Shown one piece after another: positions 10,219-41,734 of a stretch of DNA of 64,000 nt. Source of the stretch: Pseudarthrobacter equi (lineage in GTDB: Bacteria; Actinomycetota; Actinomycetes; Actinomycetales; Micrococcaceae). The stretch is from the NCBI RefSeq assembly GCF_900105535.1, contig NZ_LT629779.1, forward strand, positions 1,178,001-1,242,000. The letters run 5' to 3'. A program made the position numbers and the translations under genes. Under the pieces are notes generated by a model. The model was given only the letters and a program-made list of their open reading frames with translations, ran no database searches and had not been told where the DNA came from. Position 1 is the stretch's first letter; each line of letters begins with the position of its first letter.

Positions 10219-10259
10219 AAACCCCCCACAGCCCTCCAACGAGGGGCAATAGGGGGTTT
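10219..10259 (-). terminator. Original terminator of the tRNA-Thr gene, left outside the element
   Basis: Arms AAACCCCC and GGGGGTTT with an inner GCCCTC/GAGGGGC stem; on the minus strand it is followed by TTTTTCGC. It lies on the chromosome side of attL, so it is most likely the terminator the tRNA had before insertion. Confidence 0.7.
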
Positions 10260-10260
10260 A

Positions 10261-10311
10261 TCCCGAGCTTCCTATCAGAATCGAACTGATGACCTTTTCA
10301 TTACGAGTGAA
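10261..10311 (-). repeat. attL: 51-bp direct repeat of the tRNA-Thr 3' part
   Basis: The 51 bases are identical to those at the right end that include the anticodon arm, T arm and acceptor 3' strand of tRNA-Thr(CGT). The 5' half of the tRNA is missing here, so this copy is not a gene but the displaced chromosomal 3' end. Confidence 0.9.
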
Positions 10312-10369: not shown

Positions 10370-11515
10370 TTACTCCCAGCCCAGCCTCTCCAGGGCTGCG
10401 TTCAGCCGTCCGGCACTGTCGTGGAGGTCGTGGTCGAACAAGCCGGCGTAAGTGTCCAGGGTCATGGTGGCGCTGGCGTGCCCAGCAATCCGCTGGACCA
10501 CTTTGATGTTGGCGCCGGAGCTGATCGCCAGGCTGACCGCAGTGTGCCGGAGATCGTGGAAAGTGGGGCGTGGAAAATTGGTCATAGTTGCCTTCAACCT
10601 ACCGATGGCCGGGGAGTAGTGGCGACGGGTCCAGGTGCTGTTCCGGAGCACTGATTTCCGTGCTCCACCGAATATCCTCGCTCCAGGGCTTTCAGCGGCC
10701 GACGCGACCTTGAGGCGCTCTGCCACCAGCGCCGGCAGCGGGACAACCCTGCTTTCGCCACCTTTTGTTGGGCCGAGAACAAGCCGCCCTCCGATCTCCG
10801 AAAAGGCCTTCCTTACCGTCATGGCGGGTTTGTCGACTAGGTCAAGATCCTCATATGTGAGTGCAGTGATTTCACCCCAGCGGAGACCGCAGGTTCCTGC
10901 CACCATCACGAAGAGCTCGAACTCGTCGCATGCCTTGGCGAGCGCCATAAGCTGGGGCATTGTCAGGTAAACGTGCTCCCGCTCTTTGACCCTTGCGGGA
11001 ACATAATCGGTTTGACCAAGGGGATCCTTGGTGGGATTCGTGGCCAGCAGCCGCTTCTTGACCGCATGTCCCATCAAACGGCCGAAGTACAGGCCCACTT
11101 CACGACGGGTAGTCACTCCGGCGGGGCCGCCGTCCCGTCCCTTCAGCGTCGTGATCCAGGCGGCAACGTCGTCGTACCTGACCTTGCCAATCGGTGTGTG
11201 TCCCCAGCGAGGGGCGACATAGTTCTCGTAGCAGCGCTCGTAGTTATCGATCGTCTTAGGGCTTGCCGGCTTGCGGCCGTTGGCGCCCAAGGTGGCGACT
11301 CGCTCGATCCAATCTTCGTAGAGCTGCTCAACGGTAACTTTGGCGGCTGCGCGGGGGTCGATGTAGGTTCCACTTTGAACGGACCGAACCGTTGCATGCC
11401 AGAAGTCTTCGGCTTCCCGTTTCGTGGAAAAACGTTTGCGGCGGCGGACGTTGTCGGCAGTCGTCCAGTCGACCTCCCAGCGCTTGACTCCGCTGGAGAG
11501 CTTATTAATGGCCAT
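10370..11515 (-). CDS. Tyrosine site-specific integrase
   Basis: A 381-residue tyrosine recombinase. An N-terminal AP2-like arm-binding domain (WEVDWTTADNVRRRKRFST), a SAM-like core-binding domain (about 60-165) and a C-terminal catalytic domain are present. Catalytic residues are visible: Arg in CGLRWGEITAL, His-x-x-Arg in FHDLRHTAVS, His in IAGHASATM and the nucleophile Tyr in TLDTYAG. This is the phage/ICE integrase type that uses tRNA 3' ends. It is encoded at the element's left edge pointing toward attL, overlaps the upstream minus-strand gene by 11 bases, and has a good ribosome site (GGAAGGAGAAG). It should carry out integration and, with the small helix-turn-helix protein nearby, excision. 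Confidence 0.95.
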   Translation of the reverse strand: MAINKLSSGVKRWEVDWTTADNVRRRKRFSTKREAEDFWHATVRSVQSGTYIDPRAAAKVTVEQLYEDWIERVATLGANGRKPASPKTIDNYERCYENYVAPRWGHTPIGKVRYDDVAAWITTLKGRDGGPAGVTTRREVGLYFGRLMGHAVKKRLLATNPTKDPLGQTDYVPARVKEREHVYLTMPQLMALAKACDEFELFVMVAGTCGLRWGEITALTYEDLDLVDKPAMTVRKAFSEIGGRLVLGPTKGGESRVVPLPALVAERLKVASAAESPGARIFGGARKSVLRNSTWTRRHYSPAIGRLKATMTNFPRPTFHDLRHTAVSLAISSGANIKVVQRIAGHASATMTLDTYAGLFDHDLHDSAGRLNAALERLGWE

Positions 11516-16558: not shown

Positions 16559-16720
16559 ATGGATGTAGGGATGCTTGTGGGCATACTTTGGATTTTCGGT
16601 CAAATCCTTATTGTTGCATTTGTAGCTTATCTAGTCATACGACTCGCAGTTACGCATGCACTGCGTGCGCACGATAGGCGCCGAGCAGACGTGAATGAAC
16701 AAGCGCCATCTCATTTGTGA
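16559..16720 (+). CDS. Single-span small membrane protein (53 aa)
   Basis: A 53-residue protein with one long hydrophobic segment (LVGILWIFGQILIVAFVAYL), then a basic stretch (RLAVTHALRAHDRRR). The ribosome site TTAGGAGAG is ten bases ahead of the ATG, which supports a real gene despite the size. No known family; the layout is like many small actinobacterial membrane proteins. It lies just upstream of the secretion operon but is separated from it by about 190 bases with a separate promoter. Confidence 0.55.
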   Translation: MDVGMLVGILWIFGQILIVAFVAYLVIRLAVTHALRAHDRRRADVNEQAPSHL

Positions 16721-16862: not shown

Positions 16863-16912
16863 CCCTTTGACTCGTCAGATTGCGAGTTCTAACTAAATAA
16901 AAAGGGGGGGAT

Positions 16913-17341
16913 ATGCGACGCCTATTACGTCGTTTGTCCATAGGATTATCCGTAGTAGCACTGTCGTTAACGCTGGTGGCACCAGCAGCGAATGCTGCCG
17001 GATCAAGTTGTTCTGCATCCAGAGGCTCAACGGTGACTTGTCTCAACGTCAACGGCTCCGGTCTCTACGTTTCGACGACGAACACGCGGACCACCGGTGT
17101 CGATAATTGGAAGGCCACATTCTGTAACTTCCGTGCCAAAAACTGGTACGGCGGTTCCGTATACGGTCTCCCCTACTATGAACGCTGGGGAGGAGCGGTC
17201 TCCGGGAACTGTGGTGTAGGCAGCGTGGCGCAAGATATCGGTTGGTACACCACATTCCCGGCAAATTCACCGCTCTTTGGATCGATGTTCATCGATGGGA
17301 CCGACATGACTGGATACCCAGGAGTGAACCTGTGGCGATAG
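16913..17341 (+). CDS. Secreted four-cysteine protein A, unknown family
   Basis: A 142-residue preprotein. A classic signal peptide (basic MRRLLRRLS, hydrophobic SVVALSLTLVAP, cleavage after AANA) leaves a mature chain of about 112 residues. It has four cysteines, a FRAKNWYGGSVYG segment, a YYERWGG motif and a GVNLW ending. The next gene encodes a paralogue sharing all of these, so cysteines and motifs are probably structural (two disulfides). No known bacteriocin or enzyme family was recognised; it does not look like lactococcin 972. As first gene of a six-gene coupled operon with an exporter-like ABC system, it may be a secreted toxin, bacteriocin or surface protein. Base use is clearly lower in GC than the chromosome. 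Confidence 0.75.
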   Translation: MRRLLRRLSIGLSVVALSLTLVAPAANAAGSSCSASRGSTVTCLNVNGSGLYVSTTNTRTTGVDNWKATFCNFRAKNWYGGSVYGLPYYERWGGAVSGNCGVGSVAQDIGWYTTFPANSPLFGSMFIDGTDMTGYPGVNLWR

Positions 17342-17352
17342 AAAGAGACGTC

Positions 17353-17778
17353 ATGAGTAACCCATCGGCTACGCCGAAGAAACTGCGGCAGCGCAGCCTG
17401 GCTTTGCTGCTGACGGCGCTTACGCTAGTACTCGGTGGCCTGATTTCTGCTCCAGCAGCATCTGCCGACGGGTCCTACTGCGCCTCGAGTCAGTGCCTTA
17501 CCGTATACGGCGTTGGACTGCATGTAAGCAGCACAAAGACATACGCCACGAATGCCCAGTACTACTACTGTGATTCCAGGGCAAAGAACTGGTTCGGTGG
17601 TTCAAACTTCGGAGTTCCCTACGTTGAGCGCTGGGGCGGCACCATCTCGGGCTGCGGGACCAACCGCACCCATTGGATCACTTGGAATTACACTTTCGCT
17701 ACGCAGGGCCCACTTTTTGCTGATGTCTGGTCAAGCGGCCGCTGGAGTGGAAACACCGGAGTTAATTTGTGGGTATGA
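17353..17778 (+). CDS. Secreted four-cysteine protein B, paralogue of A
   Basis: A 141-residue preprotein with a twin-basic N-terminus (KKLRQRS), a hydrophobic core (LALLLTALTLVLGGLIS) and cleavage after ASA. The mature chain of about 107 residues keeps the four cysteines of protein A and the motifs SRAKNWFGGSNFG, PYVERWGG, SGCG and terminal TGVNLW. Overall identity to A looks near one third, concentrated in these blocks. The ATG chosen is eleven bases after the stop of A; a longer frame reaches back into A but has no signal peptide. Its stop overlaps the ATG of the following lipoprotein (ATGA). The two may act together, like two-component bacteriocins, but that is inference. Confidence 0.75.
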   Translation: MSNPSATPKKLRQRSLALLLTALTLVLGGLISAPAASADGSYCASSQCLTVYGVGLHVSSTKTYATNAQYYYCDSRAKNWFGGSNFGVPYVERWGGTISGCGTNRTHWITWNYTFATQGPLFADVWSSGRWSGNTGVNLWV

Positions 17779-18383
17779 GTTCTAGCAACCTTGTTCGACG
17801 AACCTTGAATACGGCAACGTTTTTGACCCTCATCATTACCGTGGCAGCCTGCAGCCAGCAGGCTTCCAGCACTCCGGCTTTTGATGTGCAAAAGGCAGCC
17901 GCTAATACGAGCGCCTTCCAAAAGGAATTGCTTGCCGATGGCGCTCTTACGCGCGAAGAGTACGAAAGGGCCGTCCTGGCCGAACGAGATTGCATTCAGC
18001 GGGCCGGCGCAAAACCCGGCCCGCTGGTTACCAATGGAGATAATTCGCTAAGCTTCGAAGTCGAAATAACGGCCCCGGACGAAATCCAAGGACAAGCAAT
18101 CAGCAAGAAGGCCGAGGCTTGCTACGGGGAATATGCTTCGGAGGTTTATCCTGTTTGGGCCTTTCAGAATCTTCCCACAGAGGATGACAAGCGTGAACTA
18201 AAGCCCGACCTTCTCCAATGTCTAGAGGACGCAGGAGTAGCAGTAAACAACAGCGAAACCGTCGATGACGTGATTGATGCTGTATCAACCTACTCGCAAA
18301 GCGAAGCAAGTAGGCAGAATGCAGAATTCGATGAATGCATGAAAAGGTACAAGCGGTTCTTTGATGTCTCTCCAAGAAACTGA
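17775..18383 (+). CDS. Lipoprotein of the secretion operon
   Basis: A 202-residue lipoprotein: short basic start, hydrophobic stretch (TATFLTLIITV), lipobox VAAC with cysteine near residue 26. The rest is soluble, acidic and helical, with further cysteines (RDCIQRAG, EACYGEY, LQCLEDAG, DECMKRY) placed at regular intervals, suggesting two disulfides outside the membrane. No family recognised. It is translationally coupled to protein B by an ATGA overlap, and its end overlaps the next gene by 20 bases. It could be an immunity protein or a surface receptor for the secreted proteins; both are guesses. Confidence 0.7.
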   Translation: MSSSNLVRRTLNTATFLTLIITVAACSQQASSTPAFDVQKAAANTSAFQKELLADGALTREEYERAVLAERDCIQRAGAKPGPLVTNGDNSLSFEVEITAPDEIQGQAISKKAEACYGEYASEVYPVWAFQNLPTEDDKRELKPDLLQCLEDAGVAVNNSETVDDVIDAVSTYSQSEASRQNAEFDECMKRYKRFFDVSPRN

Positions 18384-19500
18384 CAACCATCAAATTTCGG
18401 GCACGGCAAATCTCAACGAAAAACGCCGTGGTGCAGACAAGGCAAAGAATCTAAATGCAGTTGTCTCCTTCACCTGGGCCGTGGCGCTCCTGATTACTTT
18501 GGGAGCGCCACTGGCGCTGGTGGGACTCGGCCTGTTTAAAGCTCAGTCTATTGACGATCAGAGCATTCAAGGAGACCGCTGGGTTCCAGCCGCAAAACCC
18601 GCATCGTGGCCGACGTACAACGTGGAGGCAAAAGTGAAGCTGGCCGACGCGCAGACTGCCGTTAAGGCGGTGGTCGGCATGTCCGGAACAGTTACAGGAC
18701 TTCCCCCAGTGACACCAGAACAGCTTGTCAGTGGCACTTACGTGATGTCCATAAACGGGATTGATCTGACGGCCTATTCAGGAAGCACACCTTTCTTCAG
18801 GCCCCTCAGCATGGGCATGAAGGGTGCGGACGTTCAGGAATTCAACCGCTTGCTGGGAAGCCGCGGCTATGCAGCGGACACTAGCGACCGCTGGGGATCC
18901 ATTACGGACGCCGGCGCCAGACAATACTTGAAGGATATCGGCGTACAGCAAGAAGGTAATACGGAGTTTCAGCCTTCGTACATCGTTTGGGTACCCGAGG
19001 AAGGTGTGGATCTCAGTGGATATCAAGTTGCCCTCGGCCAGATGGTAGCTGCCCCAACAGCCGACGTATTCACGCCTAGGGAGACCATAGAATCCATCTC
19101 ACTAGATCAACAGAGTGAGTTGTTGCGAATGGCAAAAGCAGGTTGGAAAATCCAATACAACGAGAAGTCCTACGACTACTCAGGTAACCCGACCCAAATC
19201 TTCAAAGGACAGGACGCAAAAGCCGTTCCCGTGCCTTCTGGCGCCGAAACCATTCGCGTTGAATTTTCACCGAATTTTGGAGCAGGCACTATCAGTGTGC
19301 CGCCTTCTTCAGTACTTGAGGGTGGAGCCGGGAAACACTGCCTAATATCGCGCTCACCCAGCGGCGCGGTTGCAGTGGTAGTTGACGTGTTAGGCGGGGA
19401 GGTAGGCCGCACTTTCGTCGAACCGTTGAAAGGCGAGAGCATTAGTGAAGTCCTGGCGAATCCAGGCACCGAAAAAGAGCTTCTGTGCAAATCAGATTGA
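18364..19500 (+). CDS. Membrane protein with peptidoglycan-binding domain (MacA-like position)
   Basis: A 378-residue protein: cytoplasmic N-terminus of about 40 residues, one membrane span (VSFTWAVALLITLGAPLALVG), then a large external part. A PG_binding_1-type domain is visible around residues 150-195 (SMGMKGADVQEFNRLLGSRG, then WGSITDAGARQYLK). The C-terminal half is strand-rich with a lipoyl/beta-barrel feel (FGAGTISVPPSSVLEGG, GAVAVVVDVLGGEVG). In Gram-positive bacteria such proteins take the place of the MacA/HlyD adaptor beside MacB-like exporters. It overlaps genes on both sides, so it belongs to the same transcript. It may link the ABC exporter to the cell wall. Confidence 0.7.
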   Translation: MSLQETDNHQISGTANLNEKRRGADKAKNLNAVVSFTWAVALLITLGAPLALVGLGLFKAQSIDDQSIQGDRWVPAAKPASWPTYNVEAKVKLADAQTAVKAVVGMSGTVTGLPPVTPEQLVSGTYVMSINGIDLTAYSGSTPFFRPLSMGMKGADVQEFNRLLGSRGYAADTSDRWGSITDAGARQYLKDIGVQQEGNTEFQPSYIVWVPEEGVDLSGYQVALGQMVAAPTADVFTPRETIESISLDQQSELLRMAKAGWKIQYNEKSYDYSGNPTQIFKGQDAKAVPVPSGAETIRVEFSPNFGAGTISVPPSSVLEGGAGKHCLISRSPSGAVAVVVDVLGGEVGRTFVEPLKGESISEVLANPGTEKELLCKSD

Positions 19501-20120
19501 TTGACCTGACCTTCTCCTTTGGGTCCGGTAGCCCGCTTTTTGAGAATCTTACGCACAATTTTCATGGATCGACCACGACCGGAGTTGTAGGCCCGTCAGG
19601 AACCGGCAAAACGACGTTATTGGAACTTATTGGAGGCAAACGTAAGCCTACGCGCGGTCAAGTTATGTATGTGCCTGACAGCGTCGCTCCCCTCACGAAT
19701 CGCTTAAACCCGCGAGACATCTCCTTCATCAACCAAACAACTCCTGTCATGCCTGGTCGTACGGCTCTTCAGAACGTTCAGGTCGCACTCGTGAGCCACG
19801 GAGTTCAGCATAGGGCAGCTGAGCGAGCAGCCCACGATGCCCTAGCCGCCGTGGGACTCGAAGGGAAATGGCACCGAGAGGTATCCAAGCTATCCGGGGG
19901 CGAAGTTCAGCGTGTGTGTGTAGCTCGCTCTCTAGTCTCGCCCGCACCCATAGTGCTAGCCGATGAACCGACCGCGCAGTTGGATCAGTTGAGCGCAAAG
20001 GCTGTTTCAGAGTCGCTGACGGCATTGTCCCGGGCCGGAAAGCTGGTAATCATATCAACGCATGACCTCATGCTCGCAGATGCGTGCGACTCCATCCTGA
20101 CCATGGGCGGAGCGGAGTAG
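19485..20120 (+). CDS. ABC transporter ATP-binding protein, LolD/MacB type
   Basis: A 211-residue ATPase with Walker A GPSGTGKTT, Q-loop (SFINQTTPVMPG), signature LSGGEVQR, Walker B IVLADEPT and H-loop STHD. The short length and motif context match LolD/MacB-type ATPases, which power FtsX-like permeases for extrusion of peptides, lipoproteins or drugs. The start is a GTG overlapping the upstream gene by 16 bases, and its stop overlaps the GTG of the permease. With the peptidoglycan-binding protein and the permease it forms a complete MacAB-like exporter. Candidates for its substrate are the two secreted proteins, although these carry their own Sec signals. Confidence 0.9.
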   Translation: MQIRLIDLTFSFGSGSPLFENLTHNFHGSTTTGVVGPSGTGKTTLLELIGGKRKPTRGQVMYVPDSVAPLTNRLNPRDISFINQTTPVMPGRTALQNVQVALVSHGVQHRAAERAAHDALAAVGLEGKWHREVSKLSGGEVQRVCVARSLVSPAPIVLADEPTAQLDQLSAKAVSESLTALSRAGKLVIISTHDLMLADACDSILTMGGAE

Positions 20121-21163
20121 TGAAAATTCTTATCAGCGAGGCCGTAGTAGGTTTTCGCGCCCGAATCAGTGTCTTTTTGTTTATTTCGCTTTTCTATTCA
20201 ATTGTCGTAGCAGGCTTTCTGCTTGTCTCATTCGACGAACGCGGTGACTACGAAAACAGCCTTAGAGCCAACGCAGCTAGCGGCGCATATGTACTAGTAG
20301 CATCGGACAAGAGCGGACATCTGATGAGTTCAGAATGCGCGAGCCTGTCCGGCGTTGAAGGAGTGAAGGCTGTTGGTGCCGTGTACTCCGAGGCCACATC
20401 CTTCCTGGATAGAAATCCAGGCGAATCTGTACGTGTTGTTGATGCGCAACCTTCTGCAATCAGAGTGCTGACAGGTTCTGAAGCGATTGATGGCGCCGCG
20501 ATTGGGGCGTCCATTGGACGCCAGCTCGGTTACGGCAACGGCGACCGTATTAGTTTCGGAGACGGCGTTTCTATAAAGGTTGATTCCGTTTTTCCTGCAA
20601 GTCCTAGAAGTGACGGAAAGTCCGCATGGGTGTACAGGTCCACGGGAAACCAGCTCATGGCGTCAAAATGTATCATCGAGACTGACCCCGACTTCTTCGG
20701 AAACTATCGTAGCGCTTTACCGTCAATGTTTCCGTCCGCGGCAACTCTTGAGTTTTCCACGCTAAACGTCAATAGGCAGCAAGAAATTGAAGCGCGCTGG
20801 AAGGGTGGCCTCCATCGCCACGCCTGGCTGTTAGCTGCCATTCTAATGATGATAGGAACAACGGCGGCAACATTTCTTAGGCGAAAAGAAATAGCACTAT
20901 ATGTGATGTTAGGCATGCCGAAGTTTAAGTTGTATGGCGTTCTCACTACTCAAGCTTTAGCGACGGGTTATCTGGGCTTGGTTATCGGCGCATCATGGAC
21001 GCTGGCTTTGGCTGACAACGACATATGGGCAGGTGCGTTGAAGATCCAATACTCGCTGCCAATCCTTTGCATCATAACAGGAATCATCACTTTGGCGCCA
21101 TCGGTAGCAACAATTTTTGCTATAACTCAAAACCCGGCTCGAATCCTGAGGGACCGCAGCTGA
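20120..21163 (+). CDS. FtsX/MacB-like ABC permease of the secretion operon
   Basis: A 347-residue permease with the four-span MacB/FtsX layout: one N-terminal span (ISVFLFISLFYSIVVAGFLL), an external domain of about 200 residues with two cysteines (SECASLSG and SKCIIET), then three spans (LLAAILMMIGTTAATFL, LATGYLGLVIGASWTLAL, ILCIITGIITLAPSV). The cytoplasmic loop RRKEIALYVMLGMPKFKLYG is the typical coupling segment to the ATPase. GTG start overlaps the stop of the ATPase gene. Last gene of the operon. It lacks the fused ATPase domain of Gram-negative MacB. Confidence 0.85.
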   Translation: MKILISEAVVGFRARISVFLFISLFYSIVVAGFLLVSFDERGDYENSLRANAASGAYVLVASDKSGHLMSSECASLSGVEGVKAVGAVYSEATSFLDRNPGESVRVVDAQPSAIRVLTGSEAIDGAAIGASIGRQLGYGNGDRISFGDGVSIKVDSVFPASPRSDGKSAWVYRSTGNQLMASKCIIETDPDFFGNYRSALPSMFPSAATLEFSTLNVNRQQEIEARWKGGLHRHAWLLAAILMMIGTTAATFLRRKEIALYVMLGMPKFKLYGVLTTQALATGYLGLVIGASWTLALADNDIWAGALKIQYSLPILCIITGIITLAPSVATIFAITQNPARILRDRS

Positions 21164-21606: not shown

Positions 21607-22797
21607 TCACTCCCTCCAGGTGACGCTGTCCCGAACGTTGGTAATAGCGGTCTTTGTTACGCCGTACTGTCTTGCTAGGCGATTGATGGTCCCGCGTGGC
21701 CCTGGAAGTTGGGCGCGGATGGCCCTGGCTATGTCCATCGACAGCTTCGCTCGGGCATGCCCTTCACCTCGCGGAACAGTGCCATGTCGAAGCCTGTCCT
21801 GTCCAATGTTCTCTGAGGGAGTGGCCCAGCGAAGGTTGTCAGGGCGGTTGTCAGCAGGGTTACCGTTGCGGTGGGCTGCATGCATCCCTTTAGCGGGGGG
21901 TGGCCCATCCCAAGCCTCGCACACAAGGACGTGTACGCCGCGTGGGTTGTTCTTCCCGCAGCACACGACAGCGTAGCCAAAATCCGTGATGTGGGGCTTG
22001 AGGATTTTCATGGTCCGCCCCCGGACCCGCCCTAGTGAGCTGACCCAGTAGCCCTCGAATCGGGTAGGACGCCATTCTTCACCCTGAATTTCATCGTCCG
22101 GGTGGACGATGGAAATGATCTCGGCAGACCTGGTTCGTCGATCCTGCGCCTTTGCTTCCTGCTGACGCTTGGCCAGCACGTAAGGTGAAGGACCATCTGT
22201 GGGCTGGGTGCGGGCTTTTCCCGTGGCTATCAGATACACATAGGGCCTAGTGCAGTCATAGATCTCGGCAACCTGCTGATAGCTGACACCGCGTTCGACC
22301 AGGAGCCGCATGTCTGCAACTTCCGCGTCGTTAAACCGCGCACGCGAATTGTTGAACCCTCGGGACGTATTGTAGCGGCCTTGGGCCTTTCTGTCCGCCA
22401 TATTCTCCGCGTGTGTGCCTACCCTAAGGTGCGCGATCTCCACGCAAAGGCGGGAGTTGCACGAGACCGAGTGCAACAAGAACTCCTCCCGGGACAGCAC
22501 CTCACCGTACTCCAAGACCCACGCAGCTCGGTGGGCTGGCATGGTTCTCCCACCCAGCACAAATTTCCCGTATCCCTGATTAGATACGCCAGCTGTCCAT
22601 AGCAGGCAACCACTGGGCGCCCTCCGGGTCTTAGCATAGAACCGCGCACGATCCGATTCGCTCGAATGGCGCGGACCGGCTGCTTGGTCAGGCCGGTGGG
22701 CAGCCTCGCCGACATCGGCATCTCTTTTCAGCCTTTCATGGGGAACGGCAGCGGAGCTATTGGCGTCTGAGAACCCCTCGTGACGCGATTCCATCAT
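21607..22797 (-). CDS. Protein with two HNH endonuclease units and a C-terminal HTH
   Basis: About 396 residues from the start chosen; longer starts (up to 429 residues) would run into the divergent regulator. The first unit (CLLWTAGVSNQGYGKFVLGG, then LLHSVSCNSRLCVEIAHLRV, then GTHAENMADRKAQGR) is an HNH_3-type endonuclease fold, followed by an HTH-like segment (SYQQVAEIYDCTRPYVYLI). The second unit starts with a NUMOD4-like motif (EEWRPTRFEGYWVSSLGRVR), then an HNH (VHVLVCEAWDGPPP, MHAAHRNGNPADNRPDNLRW). A final HTH (INRLARQYGVTKTAITNV) closes the protein. NUMOD4-HNH proteins are homing-type endonucleases of phages. Two fused units in one chain is unusual. It could be a selfish endonuclease or an antiphage nuclease. 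Confidence 0.8.
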   Translation of the reverse strand: MMESRHEGFSDANSSAAVPHERLKRDADVGEAAHRPDQAAGPRHSSESDRARFYAKTRRAPSGCLLWTAGVSNQGYGKFVLGGRTMPAHRAAWVLEYGEVLSREEFLLHSVSCNSRLCVEIAHLRVGTHAENMADRKAQGRYNTSRGFNNSRARFNDAEVADMRLLVERGVSYQQVAEIYDCTRPYVYLIATGKARTQPTDGPSPYVLAKRQQEAKAQDRRTRSAEIISIVHPDDEIQGEEWRPTRFEGYWVSSLGRVRGRTMKILKPHITDFGYAVVCCGKNNPRGVHVLVCEAWDGPPPAKGMHAAHRNGNPADNRPDNLRWATPSENIGQDRLRHGTVPRGEGHARAKLSMDIARAIRAQLPGPRGTINRLARQYGVTKTAITNVRDSVTWRE

Positions 22798-22878
22798 CTT
22801 CACCCGACCTTGATCAGCGGTCTTGCATGTATCACTAGTAGAGCAGACAAGGCTGACATTATTGGTTGGCATTAGTTC

Positions 22879-23190
22879 ATGCCCATTCGCCCCCATCAGT
22901 TCTCCGAGGAGCAGACGCTCCGTTGGGCTGAACGTAGGGTGAGCGTCGGAGCCCGAATAAGAGAGCTCCGTCTCGAACAGGGCCTTTCCCAGGAGTCGCT
23001 GGCCTTGGAGTCCGGACTGAGCCGGAACATGATCATCGGAATCGAATGGGGCAAGAAGAGCGTTGCTTACGAACGGCTGTGGGATATCGCCGACGTACTT
23101 GAAGTTGCAGTAGCCGAGCTACTCCTCCCGCCACGTTCGTCAGCTGAGAACAAGCCATACCGGGGTGGCCGTCGACCGATGAGCCGATAG
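22879..23190 (+). CDS. XRE-family transcriptional regulator
   Basis: A 103-residue protein with a standard Cro/C1-type helix-turn-helix at about residues 26-80 (IRELRLEQGLSQESLALESG, NMIIGIEWGKKSVAYERLWD, IADVLEVAVAELL). No additional domain. It is divergent from the double-HNH gene and 125 bases upstream of a nuclease gene on the same strand. It may repress either. The start codon has only a weak ribosome site; an in-frame GTG further in is possible. Confidence 0.8.
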   Translation: MPIRPHQFSEEQTLRWAERRVSVGARIRELRLEQGLSQESLALESGLSRNMIIGIEWGKKSVAYERLWDIADVLEVAVAELLLPPRSSAENKPYRGGRRPMSR

Positions 23191-23314: not shown

Positions 23315-24247
23315 ATGGCAGCAGCGTGGGTGGTCCGGCAGGGTCGCGGCGGACAGTTCGCCGACGAGATGATCCGCAGCGGCTACATCGGAGTTGACTT
23401 CATCGGTGACTACGACATCCGGCCGCACTTGGGCGGGGGAGCGGAGGTGTTCCGCGGGGCGATGAACGGTATCTACCAGGAGATGTACCCCGAGAAGCCG
23501 CGCGTGGCGGTAGGCCTGGCGATGGGCAACCTGTGGGCGGCGTCGGAGGGCATCGCTGAAGGGGATCTGGTGCTGGCGCCGAAGCCTGACCGGACCTACC
23601 AGTACGGGGTTGTGGCTGGCGGCTATGAATATCATCCCGGCACGGACTTGCCGCACCGGCGGCCGGTGGATTGGAAGGGCTCGATAAACCGGGACGACAT
23701 GAGCCCGACCCTGGCGTCGACGGCCGCGGTGCCGATGACGGTCTTCCAGCTGGAGGCGCACGCCGCGGAGCTGGCGACCCTGACCCAGCTGACCGAGGCA
23801 AGCCAGCCGGTGGTTCAGGCGATCGCTTCAGAGGTGCAGGAGCAGCTGGCGTTCCAGCTGGAGAAGCAGCTTGAGGAGTTCCTGGTCCACAACTGGGCCA
23901 GCACCTCCCTGGGCCGTGAGTTCGACATCTACGCGGAGGACGGGCAGCCGGTCGGCCAGCAGTACCCGTCCGATACGGGCCCGATGGACATCCTGGCGAT
24001 CAGCAAGGACCGGTCCCGGCTGCTGGTCGTCGAGTTGAAGCGTGGCCGGGCCAGTGATGCCGTCGTCGGCCAGATCCAGCGCTACATGGGGTACGTCCAG
24101 GATGCACTGCTTGAACCGGGCCAGTCCGTGGAGGGGGTCATCATCGCCCAGGAGGACGACCTGAGGATCCGCCGGGCCCTGTCGATGACGAGGAACATCC
24201 GGTTCATGAGGTACCGGGTCGAATTCCACCTTGAGGAAGCCAGATAG
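23315..24247 (+). CDS. Putative type IV restriction nuclease with NucS-like C-terminal domain
   Basis: A 310-residue protein with a strong ribosome site (GGGGGAG). The N-terminal half (AWVVRQGRGGQFADEMIRSG, YIGVDFIGDYDIRP, EGDLVLAPKP, YQYGVVAGGYEY, PHRRPVDW) reads like the modified-base reader or PUA-like domain seen at the front of Mrr-type enzymes. The C-terminal half holds a PD-(D/E)xK nuclease core of the DUF91/NucS type (GPMDILAISKDRSRLLVVEL, then KRGRASDAVVGQIQRYMG): Asp in PMD, Glu and Lys in VELKRG. The combination suggests cleavage of modified foreign DNA. No methyltransferase is encoded nearby, as expected for type IV systems. Confidence 0.75.
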   Translation: MAAAWVVRQGRGGQFADEMIRSGYIGVDFIGDYDIRPHLGGGAEVFRGAMNGIYQEMYPEKPRVAVGLAMGNLWAASEGIAEGDLVLAPKPDRTYQYGVVAGGYEYHPGTDLPHRRPVDWKGSINRDDMSPTLASTAAVPMTVFQLEAHAAELATLTQLTEASQPVVQAIASEVQEQLAFQLEKQLEEFLVHNWASTSLGREFDIYAEDGQPVGQQYPSDTGPMDILAISKDRSRLLVVELKRGRASDAVVGQIQRYMGYVQDALLEPGQSVEGVIIAQEDDLRIRRALSMTRNIRFMRYRVEFHLEEAR

Positions 24248-25389: not shown

Positions 25390-26004
25390 TTAGGTGGCCA
25401 TGCCCAGGTACGAGACGGGGGTACCGTCCGGGAGGTGGCGTGTGGCATTCAGGATCTGCCCTGCAATGGACCAGTAGACGTCGATGTCGGTCAGTTCCAG
25501 ATTGTCTGTGGCGTCTTCGCCGCCGAGGAACAGGGGTTGCTTGTACCCGATGCACTCTGTAAACGCGGGTGCAGCTCCTCCGGCCGCACGCCACTCGGCG
25601 AACCAATCTGGGAACAGGCACGAGTCGCGGTATTCGAAGAGGGCGTCGTCGTGGAATTTGGAGAAGGGGACAGGTACCTCCAAGGCTTCACCGGTGCCGG
25701 GCTCCAGCAGGATGACTTCCGGGTCATCCGGGGTTCCCCGGTGGAAGTCCAAGGCGAATTGGCGGCCCAGCCAATCGAATCCGAAACAGAACGTCTCCGT
25801 CTGGAATCCCGGGTACGCTTCAGCAGCTGTCTTTGAGGCAGCTTTCGATGAAACGTCGTTGTGGATCCGGTAGATGCCACCGTCGAAAGTCGTGCCGCCA
25901 AAGGTATTAAACAAGCCAGTGAGGATCCCGGGAGCGGCGGCGCTGGTGTTCTGGCGCGGCTCCTGTGATGTGGCGGTGAATCCGTTGGCGAACCGTTCGT
26001 ACAT
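25390..26004 (-). CDS. Tdi1-type (DUF1851) immunity-like protein
   Basis: A 204-residue soluble protein with a good ribosome site (GGGGAGGAA). The C-terminal third (CIGYKQPLFLGGEDATDNLE, LTDIDVYWSIAGQIL) is the T6SS immunity Tdi1 C-terminal domain signature; the N-terminal part (LFNTFGGTTFDGGIYRIHN) fits the GAD-like region that usually precedes it. Such proteins neutralise ADP-ribosyl transferase or related toxins of competitors. No cognate toxin is encoded nearby, so it is probably an orphan immunity gene. It starts a region of several immunity-like genes. Confidence 0.75.
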   Translation of the reverse strand: MYERFANGFTATSQEPRQNTSAAAPGILTGLFNTFGGTTFDGGIYRIHNDVSSKAASKTAAEAYPGFQTETFCFGFDWLGRQFALDFHRGTPDDPEVILLEPGTGEALEVPVPFSKFHDDALFEYRDSCLFPDWFAEWRAAGGAAPAFTECIGYKQPLFLGGEDATDNLELTDIDVYWSIAGQILNATRHLPDGTPVSYLGMAT

Positions 26005-38711: not shown

Positions 38712-39884
38712 TCAGTCAGGTTGCGAAGCGAGGAGCCTGAATGCGCGAGGATTTAGAAGTTCCCTTCTTCGTGCGGTTCGCTTCAAATCGCCAGTGATCA
38801 GAACTTCCGAATACTCTTGATGTGCTGTAGAAGCGCGCTGGTAGTCCTCGGCAGTCAGTTCAACCCAGAAGTGCGCCAGAGGCCCACCTGGATTCGCAAC
38901 ATCGCTTCCTGCGATCGTGATTTTGCCCGGGGTATCTGAAGGGCCGGTCCTTGAGAGTCTGATAACCAGACCGCTAACAGTCACATCTTCTTCAACTGCT
39001 TCTTGACGAAGTTGTTTGCCAGCCCAGGCAATAATCTCCAACTGATCCTGCGAGACAGCGAGCTTTGATGCCGTTGTCGTGACTGGCCGACGGGCGGACC
39101 ACTTGAAGCTGAACTCCAATGGGGTGAGGCCGTCCGCCGACGTTTGCGAAAGCGCCTCACATAGGTCGGCGCTTATGCCCTCAGGAATGCGCCGTCTGAA
39201 CGCCTCAAGTCCAACATCAGATGCTATGGCCTCTGAGGCGGCATTAGCAGCGGCCTGTGTGCTCCTAAGCAGGTGTAGGGTCGTGCGGCGGGAGTAATCT
39301 TCCAGTCGTAAATCCGAGCCGGGCAACACGAAGGGGTACTGTTCAGGCATTGCATGATCGCTAAGCGGAACGGATAGTCTCCATATGAAGCTCCCGGCCA
39401 CCGGAGTCAGCATCTCTGTTGCCCGAACTAGGGCGGTGGCCTCTGGCGGTCGCCGCCGAGGTAGCACAGCGGAACTTTCCTGAAGGGCAACAGCGGTAGC
39501 CGAGCTCTCGACCCATTTTCGCAGGCCCTGGACCGACTCCGCCGAAGCGCTCAGACCCATACTCCCAGGAGCGCCAAACGGGAATGTGCGAACTTCTTGG
39601 ATGTCACGCTCTAAGTCAACGAGATCGCGTACGACATCGTCGACGTCCCGGCTTTCGGCCTTAGCAATGACCTGTATGAGCTGAGCAATCCTATCCACAA
39701 ACGTCTTGACTTCAGGATTGCTAGGTAGCCAGCCCTGCGGCTGCTCGTCGTCGGTGGCTCTCGTCCAATAGGACCCTGCAACGTCGCCGTCGACTTCTTG
39801 CCAACCGTGTGTCAGAAGGTAAGCAGTAAAGTTTGCCAATGGGATGTTGGCAAGGACCTGTCGATTCACTACATGCTGGCCCAT
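38712..39884 (-). CDS. Unknown protein, third gene of the TIR operon
   Basis: A 390-residue soluble protein with an N-terminal alpha-beta part (NIPLANFTAYLLTHGWQEVD, then YWTRATDDEQPQGWLPSN) and a long helical middle (VDRIAQLIQVIAKAESRDVD). The C-terminal 150 residues mix strands and helices (PLEFSFKWSARRP, VTVSGLVIRLSRTGPSD, HFWVELTAEDYQRASTAHQ). No family recognised. It overlaps the DUF4365 gene by 16 bases, so the two products probably work together. Genes of this sort are typical second components in antiphage operons. Confidence 0.6.
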   Translation of the reverse strand: MGQHVVNRQVLANIPLANFTAYLLTHGWQEVDGDVAGSYWTRATDDEQPQGWLPSNPEVKTFVDRIAQLIQVIAKAESRDVDDVVRDLVDLERDIQEVRTFPFGAPGSMGLSASAESVQGLRKWVESSATAVALQESSAVLPRRRPPEATALVRATEMLTPVAGSFIWRLSVPLSDHAMPEQYPFVLPGSDLRLEDYSRRTTLHLLRSTQAAANAASEAIASDVGLEAFRRRIPEGISADLCEALSQTSADGLTPLEFSFKWSARRPVTTTASKLAVSQDQLEIIAWAGKQLRQEAVEEDVTVSGLVIRLSRTGPSDTPGKITIAGSDVANPGGPLAHFWVELTAEDYQRASTAHQEYSEVLITGDLKRTARRRELLNPRAFRLLASQPD

Positions 39885-40417
39885 TGCTGCGCCTTTCCTG
39901 AATGATCGAACAAGTACTCCGACAATTTCAACGGGGTGAGCAGGCTATCCGGTGGGAACGACAATCTGCTCTGCGTTGCGGAGGGTCCAATCGGGGGACG
40001 CCCCATCAGGTCCAAAATATAGGCCTCCCGACTGAGCCTAAGGCCGTCACTCTCCATTGACGCGAAGTCTCGCCTTGAGGGTGGGACTACAACCACAATC
40101 AGGTATCTCCGAATATCGAAGTCAGTTGGGTAAGTTCCGCACAGCACATCGTGGGCCTCAGCTTTGATGTCGTACTGAAAGCTGCCATCGGGCCCGTAAA
40201 TTGGGTTCTTCGTGGACTTTACGGAGACTTCTATTGTCTGCGACGGCCAAGGGATGTCGTGGCGTCTCGTGTACTTGATGGAAAGGTCCACACCAACCGG
40301 CTCGGGGTCCTGCTTGCCGACTCCGAACCCCGCTGCACTGGCTAGTGCCCGCACATACTGTTCGGCAAAGTGGCCCTGAACGCCGCTGTGGTACCCCTGC
40401 AATTGTTGAGTTGACAT
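39869..40417 (-). CDS. DUF4365-domain protein, putative nuclease-fold
   Basis: A 182-residue protein. The first two thirds show the DUF4365 pattern: GVQGHFAEQYVRALASAAGF, VGVDLSIKYTRR, then a strand with QTIEVSVKSTKN, in the order E, D, ExxxK expected for a PD-(D/E)xK-like fold, although the final E-x-K is here E-V-S-V-K. The C-terminal part continues with strands (RRYLIVVVVPP, EAYILDLMGRP). DUF4365 proteins recur in defence islands. It lies 60 bases downstream of the TIR gene on the same strand. Confidence 0.7.
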   Translation of the reverse strand: MSTQQLQGYHSGVQGHFAEQYVRALASAAGFGVGKQDPEPVGVDLSIKYTRRHDIPWPSQTIEVSVKSTKNPIYGPDGSFQYDIKAEAHDVLCGTYPTDFDIRRYLIVVVVPPSRRDFASMESDGLRLSREAYILDLMGRPPIGPSATQSRLSFPPDSLLTPLKLSEYLFDHSGKAQQWASM

Positions 40418-40477
40418 CAGCACTGGTTGAAGCTGCAGCTTTGACTGAATGGGAGGACGCTGAAGGGTAGACCCAGG

Positions 40478-41431
40478 CTACGCAATGAGTTTAACTCCAG
40501 CTGCTACCAGCTCTTTCCTGAGCTTCTCGTACCAGTTGGGCGCGGAACGTGGTATGTAGACCAGTCCTGCGACGTCAGACGGTGTCTCGACGCCATCGTT
40601 AATGGTGATCACACGGCTGCGAGTTAGTGATCCTACAAAAAACCCCATCTCGAAGACCACGTTCTGGCGTGCACGGGGCTGAAGGTCGGCGGAAGAAGAT
40701 TTTGCCGCTCCTATGTCGTCGGGCGTAAGCAGAACGACTGCCACCGAGGCTTTGGATGCCTTGGCCTCGAACTTTTCGATCAGAGTCTTGCCCCCGCTTG
40801 CTTCAAAGTCGAGGACCACAGGGTTCGTTCCTGTGACCCGCTGAAGAAAGAGATGAACTTCGTTACGCAGATCGTGGTCATGCCCGTGAACAATAAAAAT
40901 CTCGGGTTCTTCCTTGGCTGTCACCGGCTCAGCGCTGGCAGACGGCTCCCACTGAGTGGCGCTTGGAGTACTCTCTTTCGGCAACTTGGGTGCAGCCGTA
41001 GCGATGTCCTTGTCCCAGGGCGCAGCCCACGGTGCAGCGTCCTCTAATGAGGTAGCGGTTTCTCGCTGACCGCTCTTCTTTTCAGGGGAGGCAGGGGCTG
41101 GGCCAAACACCTTCCAATACATCGCAAGATCATTTTGCTTCAACCACTCCTTGAAGCGGGGGAACGCGACTTTGACTTGGTCAAGGTCGGGCATAGATCC
41201 GTTGCCCATCGACTTCAGTATCTTCTTTGTCACGTCGACAGCATGCGTCGGGTAGTCGGGATCGCCCCAACTCAGAGCACGAAGTAACCGGTCGTGTCCT
41301 TGTATGATCTCGAGAGTCCCGGTTTCAATCCCGATTTCGATCCAGTCGGGTTCCTCGAACGTTTTTGTCACGTACTTGAGTACGGCGTTCTGGAGCTGTT
41401 GCCCGTTTGAATCCTTCGTTGGTCCCACCAT
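40478..41431 (-). CDS. TIR-like effector protein (CAP12/PycTIR-type domain)
   Basis: A 317-residue protein. The C-terminal 145 residues form a TIR-like nucleotide-binding domain of the PF10137 type: EIFIVHGHDHDLRNEVHLFL, VVLDFEASGGKTLIEKFEAK, VAVVLLTPDDIGA, then ARQNVVFEMGFFVGSLTRSR with the putative catalytic Glu, and SDVAGLVYIP. Such domains cleave NAD+ in cyclic-nucleotide-activated defence systems. The N-terminal 120 residues are a separate helical domain (LQNAVLKYVTKTF, KVAFPRFKEWLKQND), linked by a Pro/Ala/Ser-rich stretch. An ATG with TAGGATC ahead is preferred over a TTG ten codons earlier. No cyclase is nearby. First gene of the three-gene minus-strand unit by attR. Confidence 0.82.
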   Translation of the reverse strand: MVGPTKDSNGQQLQNAVLKYVTKTFEEPDWIEIGIETGTLEIIQGHDRLLRALSWGDPDYPTHAVDVTKKILKSMGNGSMPDLDQVKVAFPRFKEWLKQNDLAMYWKVFGPAPASPEKKSGQRETATSLEDAAPWAAPWDKDIATAAPKLPKESTPSATQWEPSASAEPVTAKEEPEIFIVHGHDHDLRNEVHLFLQRVTGTNPVVLDFEASGGKTLIEKFEAKASKASVAVVLLTPDDIGAAKSSSADLQPRARQNVVFEMGFFVGSLTRSRVITINDGVETPSDVAGLVYIPRSAPNWYEKLRKELVAAGVKLIA

Positions 41432-41534
41432 GTCAATGATCCTATACGGAGCCAGGTCCAATCAGTCCCGGGCTGTCCTCGGGTCGGGCGCCAGCGCGGG
41501 GCGTAGCGAACGGCAGCGGAAGGGTGTTTCCGTT

Positions 41535-41621: not shown

Positions 41622-41655
41622 AAACCCCCCAGAAACCTTGATTTCTAGGGGGTTT
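41622..41655 (-). terminator. Element-borne terminator behind tRNA-Thr
   Basis: Arms AAACCCCC(C)AGAAA and TTTCT(A)GGGGGTTT followed on the minus strand by TTTTTCGC. It lies on the element side of attR, so the element supplies a terminator to replace the one it displaced. Confidence 0.7.
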
Positions 41656-41656
41656 G

Positions 41657-41707
41657 TCCCGAGCTTCCTATCAGAATCGAACTGATGACCTTTTCATTAC
41701 GAGTGAA
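41657..41707 (-). repeat. attR: 51-bp repeat inside tRNA-Thr
   Basis: Identical to attL over 51 bases. It covers the tRNA from the anticodon arm to the 3' end plus five bases beyond. Confidence 0.9.
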
Positions 41708-41734
41708 ACGCTCTACCGACTGAGCTAAGGAAGC
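41662..41734 (-). tRNA. tRNA-Thr (anticodon CGT)
   Basis: The minus strand folds into a complete cloverleaf: acceptor GCTTCCT/AGGAAGC, D arm with GCTC/GAGC, anticodon stem TTTCA/TGAAA with loop CTCGTAA (anticodon CGT), T stem ATCAG/CTGAT with loop TTCGATT, and discriminator T. The CCA end is not encoded. Its 3' part is contributed by the integrated element. Confidence 0.95.

Follow-up and report, generated by a model that had tools for sequence, protein, structure and literature searches.

What is the function of an operon that couples two small secreted proteins to a lipoprotein and a complete pump of the ATP-binding cassette (ABC) type? Such an operon, consisting of six open reading frames (ORFs) on the + strand, lies at positions 16913–21163 of the 64,000-nucleotide stretch of the Pseudarthrobacter equi genome analyzed here (the window; contig NZ_LT629779.1), and its gene coordinates were read directly from the sequence. 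The first two genes, A1 (16913–17341) and A2 (17353–17778, ATG start), encode exported four-cysteine paralogues of 142 and 141 residues, respectively. They are followed by LP (17775–18383), a lipoprotein with the lipobox VAAC; PGB (18364–19500, ATG start), a membrane-fusion protein (MFP) with an inserted peptidoglycan-binding domain; ABC (19485–20120, GTG start), an ATPase of the LolD/MacB/FtsE type; and FtsX (20120–21163, GTG start), an FtsX-like permease. On balance, we lean towards the view that the operon, carried as cargo of a tRNA-Thr island, encodes a Sec-secreted antibacterial-protein system, in which the lipoprotein would confer immunity in the manner of NisI and the pump would resemble AS-48EFGH and NisFEG.

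A preliminary description of this locus had reported six same-strand genes, the last five of which overlap by 1–20 bases, and this layout was confirmed: A1 and A2 are separated by 11 bases, and the subsequent overlaps are 4 (A2/LP), 20 (LP/PGB), 16 (PGB/ABC), and 1 (ABC/FtsX) bases. A ribosome-binding site in the form of a G-run is located upstream of A1 (16904–16910). The reported exported paralogues with four cysteines were likewise found: A1 and A2 share 49% identity, the four cysteines align in the mature parts, and both possess signal peptides that end in AxA and were judged by eye to be of the Sec type. The mature chains are about 110 residues long and resemble unmodified Sec proteins. 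The Sec-type signal peptides suggest that A1 and A2 more likely cross the membrane by Sec, and that the more probable task of the pump is expulsion or self-protection. The designation "MacAB-like exporter" in the preliminary description thus holds for the architecture of the pump but probably not for export across the membrane. Just 5' of A1, a small ORF of about 52 residues with a single membrane segment (16562–16720, +) was also observed, which showed no PHROG match.

The assignments of the other four products as a lipoprotein, a peptidoglycan-binding membrane protein, a LolD/MacB ATPase, and an FtsX-like permease were borne out by the lipobox and by profile comparisons. The LP family has no Pfam or NCBIfam name, and its conserved features are the motif LADG-x-x-T/S-x-x-E-Y/M-E and a conserved cysteine; a weak SHOCT match of LP below the cut-off was not used. 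A PGB profile built from eight homologues matched, among solved structures, lipoyl chains (6.6e-6), peptidoglycan-binding domains as in a spore cortex-lytic enzyme (1.5e-5), and the C-terminal portions of the ZneB/CusB adaptors (0.015–0.047), in this order, which identifies PGB as a membrane-fusion protein that carries a wall-binding domain as an insert. ABC matched PF00005 at 3.3e-27, and FtsX matched PF02687 at 6.9e-5 with 23.3 bits, slightly below the cut-off of 25.5 bits. The GC content ranges from 0.515 to 0.553 across the five 1-kb windows between 16 and 21 kb and from 0.651 to 0.696 across the ten between 42 and 52 kb, in agreement with the earlier remark that the operon is much poorer in GC than the chromosome.

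The order LP-PGB-ABC-FtsX recurs in other genomes. PGB matches, mostly weak, were found in 38 of the 295 genomes of the family, and 22 PGB triads are contained in the loci of 20 of the 43 non-self matches, a set made up largely but not strictly of the best ones. In all 22 triads, PGB is followed by ABC and FtsX, with exceptions in form at L051, which encodes a fused protein, and L049, where FtsX is a fragment of 108 residues near the contig end. A hidden Markov model (HMM) of LP, iterated on the fetched loci, placed LP immediately upstream of PGB in 16 of the 22 triads. L036 and L043 possess a lipobox protein at the LP position that was missed by the HMM, LP sits behind FtsX in the second triads of L034 and L035, and no LP was detected by the HMM at L051 and L052. 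A single-sequence search with LP hit 7 of 346 genomes of the phylum, including the host. Among the loci from this search, L089 and L092 contain the triad with LP, L090 and L091 contain the triad with a divergent LP, and L082–L088 and L093 contain LP without a complete triad.

Within the genus, LP was found in 2 of 150 genomes, namely the host and one genome (79% completeness) that possesses LP but no triad. The host was the sole same-genus match of PGB among the genomes listed in the family search (20 other same-genus genomes gave no match), and the genomes outside this listing may include more of the genus. A metagenome-assembled genome (MAG) labelled Dehalococcoidia carries the order exported protein-LP-LP-PGB-LP-ABC-FtsX on one 8.8-kb contig (L097); a binning error is possible, and therefore we make no claim on Chloroflexota. 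In the plasmid and phage records, PGB gave one plasmid match and one phage match, both partial and distant, and LP gave no plasmid match.

LP is preceded preferentially by small exported proteins. A partner was defined as an ORF of 75–190 residues on the same strand that passes a signal-peptide heuristic, lacks a second transmembrane segment, and ends near the start of the target. By this rule, 22 of 52 LP ORFs have a partner, and the other genes of these loci have one in 5 of 114 cases (Fisher p 4.9e-9), where the rule was fixed after the loci had been inspected, the related loci are not independent, and one of them, L059, was itself found via A1. The corresponding numbers for the pump genes are 2 of 27 (PGB), 0 of 28 (ABC), and 0 of 27 (FtsX). 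The rule misses visible partners at L038 and L091; L035, which is nearly identical to L034, was dropped from the count, and L060 and L061 are not in it. Exactly two cysteines remain after the predicted cut in 17 of the 22 partners. The partner sequences vary from locus to locus, with LP and the triad retained, as expected of polymorphic toxin-immunity sets. In addition, the Acidimicrobiia MAG JALSQW01 (G350), which falls in the host's own phylum, contains several pairs of an exported protein and LP, some of them in a row and several on short contigs.

Some of the partners belong to a known family. The partners at L043 and L048 matched the beta/gamma-crystallin family PF09076 above the cut-off (4.4e-6 and 1.5e-7, respectively), and those at L036 and L037 matched it below the cut-off (4.5e-4 and 0.014, respectively). 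Among solved structures, the L048 protein matched the chain 1g6e, "antifungal protein", at 3.4e-4, and its match to 1f53, "yeast killer toxin-like protein", was insignificant (0.7); we take these structures to be AFP1 and SKLP, respectively. No Pfam family was matched at its cut-off by any of the remaining 16 exported proteins that were scanned.

The preliminary description recognized no described family for A1 and A2 themselves, and this held in Pfam, NCBIfam, and PADLOC (for the lactococcin 972 models of Pfam and NCBIfam, up to an E-value of 1) as well as in the protein searches made. A single-sequence search with A2 among 5.8 billion proteins found A2 alone, a search with A1 in plasmids found nothing, and one scan of genome contigs with the A1/A2 alignment found nothing beyond the window's own protein. 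Relatives were detected by profile only. The A1/A2 alignment, searched against 396 genomes, hit an ORF of G350 at 5.3e-5 (E-value for one genome), and this ORF directly precedes an LP homologue (L059, a 4.66-kb contig). The other three non-self matches of the A1 profile were weaker (0.001–0.0084), and no LP neighbor was found at their loci, L055 (read by eye), L060, and L061 (both without a module match), leaving L059 as the only one of the four with LP.

Addition of the G350 ORF to the profile led to P0004 at 4.6e-6 among the 5.8 billion proteins. When a profile built on the mature regions of these four proteins was searched against 3149 sequences, the next matches were the exported protein of L092 (7.7e-4) and that of L045 (0.005), whose near-copy P0005 was matched at 0.019; P0006 was matched at 1.9, and P0007 was not matched. 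Without P0004, neither L092 (6.4) nor L045 (0.48) was significant. We consider these two proteins, the former of which heads a complete LP-PGB-ABC-FtsX operon, to be probable homologues of A1 and A2. The preliminary description had asked whether homologues of the pair always lack the triad; the check, which was partly run, found them with the triad in L092, the probable homologue, and without it on the short contig of L059. A search including L092 retrieved P0005–P0007, with scores taken over no more than 8000 candidates. In P0007 the first and second cysteines are both missing, and this one sequence hints at a disulphide bond between the two positions.

The link to the wider set of partners was examined by searching all ORFs of the loci with the mature A1/A2 profile. 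LP-linked exported proteins occupied the top three ranks and five of the top ten, whereas 100 column-permuted profiles placed at most two in the top three and three in the top ten; one of the top three is the L059 protein found via A1, and an LP-linked protein at E ≤0.012 also came from 1 of the 100 permuted profiles. The link is order-dependent, though weak.

The operon is cargo of an island integrated at tRNA-Thr(CGT) (41661–41734, −). The island spans 31.4 kb (10250–41707) and is bounded by two 62-bp att copies that are identical at 61 of 62 positions (10250–10311 and 41646–41707), the right copy holding the 3' part of the tRNA gene. A tyrosine integrase (10370–11515, −; PF00589 5.6e-18, phrog_1 4.7e-60) adjoins the left copy. 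In two genomes of the same genus, G691 and G692, the flanks of the island are contiguous at one tRNA-Thr (loci L136 and L139). The direct repeat with the tRNA 3' end, the adjacent integrase, and the empty sites in relatives together identify the element as a tRNA-integrated island. A repeat search limited to 8.5–26 kb did not find the att pair, the right copy at 41.6 kb being outside this range. The nuclease gene at 23315 was considered as a chromosomal border and rejected, because the att pair and the empty sites place it inside the island.

This gene (23315–24244, +) encodes a NucS_C-domain protein and is the PADLOC defence candidate PDC-S02 (461.6 bits). The island also contains an HNH endonuclease gene (21610–22896), a gene for a protein with a Tdi1-type immunity C-terminal domain (25393–26004, −; PF08906 4.9e-8), the adjacent genes of the PADLOC candidate defence pair PDC-M02A/PDC-M02B (38715–40423, −), and a gene for a protein combining AbiJ N-terminal domain 5 (AbiJ_NTD5) with a CAP12/Pycsar-type TIR domain (40481–41461, −), which is also the PADLOC candidate PDC-S35. 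G691 carries, elsewhere in its genome, a copy of both the 23315–24244 gene and the segment 26070–28295.

In the mechanism that we favor, A1 and A2 would be exported by Sec, cleaved, and folded outside the membrane with disulphide bonds, and would then act against competing bacteria. LP on the surface of the producer's membrane may bind A1 and A2 in the manner of NisI and nisin. PGB, ABC, and FtsX have the architecture of a tripartite pump with a wall-tethered adaptor; the pump would take A1 and A2, perhaps from LP, off the outer face of the membrane and push them outwards, providing immunity and aiding release. The recurrent LP-PGB-ABC-FtsX order, the preference of LP for small exported proteins, the exported-protein/LP pairs of G350, the crystallin/antifungal-type partners at related loci, and the TIR/AbiJ gene and the PADLOC candidates on the same island are consistent with this antibacterial reading. 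The suggestion of a toxin or bacteriocin system in the preliminary description can therefore be divided: the secreted pair does belong with LP and the ABC triad, as indicated by the recurrent order and the LP partners, and the roles of A1 and A2 as a toxin or bacteriocin and of LP in immunity are plausible but unproven.

Several observations weigh against an antibacterial system. Thirty of the 52 LP ORFs have no partner by the rule, although the 52 include fragments and alternative-frame ORFs. In the named isolate Sanguibacter gelidistatuariae (L099), LP-PGB-ABC-FtsX lies behind an exported protein of 1040 residues and no small one. None of the seven G350 loci (L059 and L082–L087) shows a complete triad. 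AFP1-type proteins are antifungal, and immunity would then be unnecessary. Finally, a structure model of A1 from two sequences was unusable (pLDDT 38.9) and did not enter any fold search.

The alternative that survives best, which we nevertheless regard as unlikely, is a secretion machine, in which the pump, with LP as a carrier or chaperone, moves Sec-translocated A1 and A2 through the wall, and neither toxicity nor an immunity role is required. MacAB moves periplasmic proteins, and the coupling of a peptidoglycan-binding adaptor, an ATPase, and an FtsX permease to secreted genes, in the same order at many loci, would suit such a role. The G350 pairs without a nearby triad argue otherwise, since they imply that export of such proteins need not depend locally on the triad.

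We judge it improbable that A1 and A2 are antifungal or otherwise directed at eukaryotes in the manner of AFP1, with LP and the pump serving release only. The partners at L043 and L048 are members of PF09076, and AFP1 has been described as chitin-binding and antifungal (PMC10796067), but A1 and A2 do not match this family, and the conserved pairing with a lipoprotein suggests a need for self-protection. Moreover, the same report mentions that functional AFP1 could not be produced in Lactococcus lactis and suspects antibacterial activity (PMC10796067). A resistance or sensing module, in which LP and a BceAB/MacAB-like pump guard the cell against foreign peptides while the small exported proteins act as decoys or signals, is just as doubtful: FtsX matches BceB weakly (0.034) and some modules are not preceded by a small exported ORF, but no two-component system was found among the neighboring genes searched, and LP is associated with small exported proteins.

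Returning to the antibacterial system, we tentatively extend the proposal, with less confidence than in the system itself, to a so far undescribed class of polymorphic systems in monoderm bacteria that pair a secreted protein with a lipoprotein; the operon would be one member. In such systems, fast-diverging, Sec-exported, disulphide-bonded small toxins, AFP1-like beta/gamma-crystallins included, would each have a cognate lipoprotein, drawn from a single family, and would share a wall-anchored MFP-ABC-FtsX pump; the pairs would form arrays in Acidimicrobiia and be moved on tRNA islands, and A1 and A2 would constitute a two-protein toxin. Should LP be the immunity partner, its family would offer a handle to many unrecognized antibacterial proteins, small and secreted, in actinobacteria; most of the exported proteins tested here have no Pfam family. 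The proposal, if true, would also connect crystallin proteins of the antifungal/killer type with operons that carry immunity and provide a model for how monoderm bacteria shield the outer face of the membrane from folded protein toxins.

Comparison with known systems places the operon near several of them. Lactococcin 972 is exported by Sec, and two genes could encode its dedicated immunity ABC transporter (PMC4786598). The Sec-type signals of A1 and A2, as judged by eye, are similar, and among the NCBIfam models the window ATPase scores best with TIGR03608 of the lactococcin 972 group. The score, however, is far under the cut-off (140.2 against 254.85 bits), so that the ATPase does not qualify for this subfamily; A1 and A2 match no lactococcin 972 model, and the operon has an additional lipoprotein and peptidoglycan-binding adaptor. 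From these sequence comparisons, the operon is not a lactococcin 972 system. As in the MacAB exporter, a membrane-fusion adaptor, a LolD/MacB ATPase, and an FtsX permease (here below the Pfam cut-off) are encoded together, but MacB is a fused ATPase-permease with an outer-membrane partner, and here the ATPase and the permease are separate genes and the operon encodes no outer-membrane protein. The Streptomyces AFP1/killer-toxin-like crystallins of PF09076 are also small secreted proteins, and their homologues occupy the A1/A2 position in L043 and L048 and, with weaker matches, in L036 and L037, although A1 and A2 lack this match.

The arrangement most directly reflected in our proposal is that of nisin producers, in which NisI and NisFEG are reported to act cooperatively against nisin (PMC4828448). 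Here too, genes for a surface lipoprotein and an ABC transporter are coupled to putative antimicrobial genes, as seen from the overlaps, the lipobox, and the recurrence of the module. In contrast to nisin, the secreted products are Sec proteins, and the permease is of the FtsX type with an MFP; the likeness to NisI is one of arrangement. In the enterocin systems, as-48EFGH is reported to raise both production and immunity (PMC6131525), and mr10EFGH is described as comprising an adaptor, an ATPase, a permease, and a fourth component, the most specific of the set (PMC10598978). The operon shares the plan of an adaptor, an ATPase, and a permease with a fourth specific component, which is transmembrane in the enterocin systems as described and a lipoprotein here; the adaptor here binds peptidoglycan, and the cargo is unrelated. 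A description of the module was not encountered in the open-licence literature searched, which lacks most subscription papers. A bacteriocin with lipoprotein and ABC immunity is of an already known kind; what appears to be new here is the combination of Sec-exported, cysteine-bearing proteins with an unnamed lipoprotein family and a peptidoglycan-binding MFP-ABC-FtsX pump.

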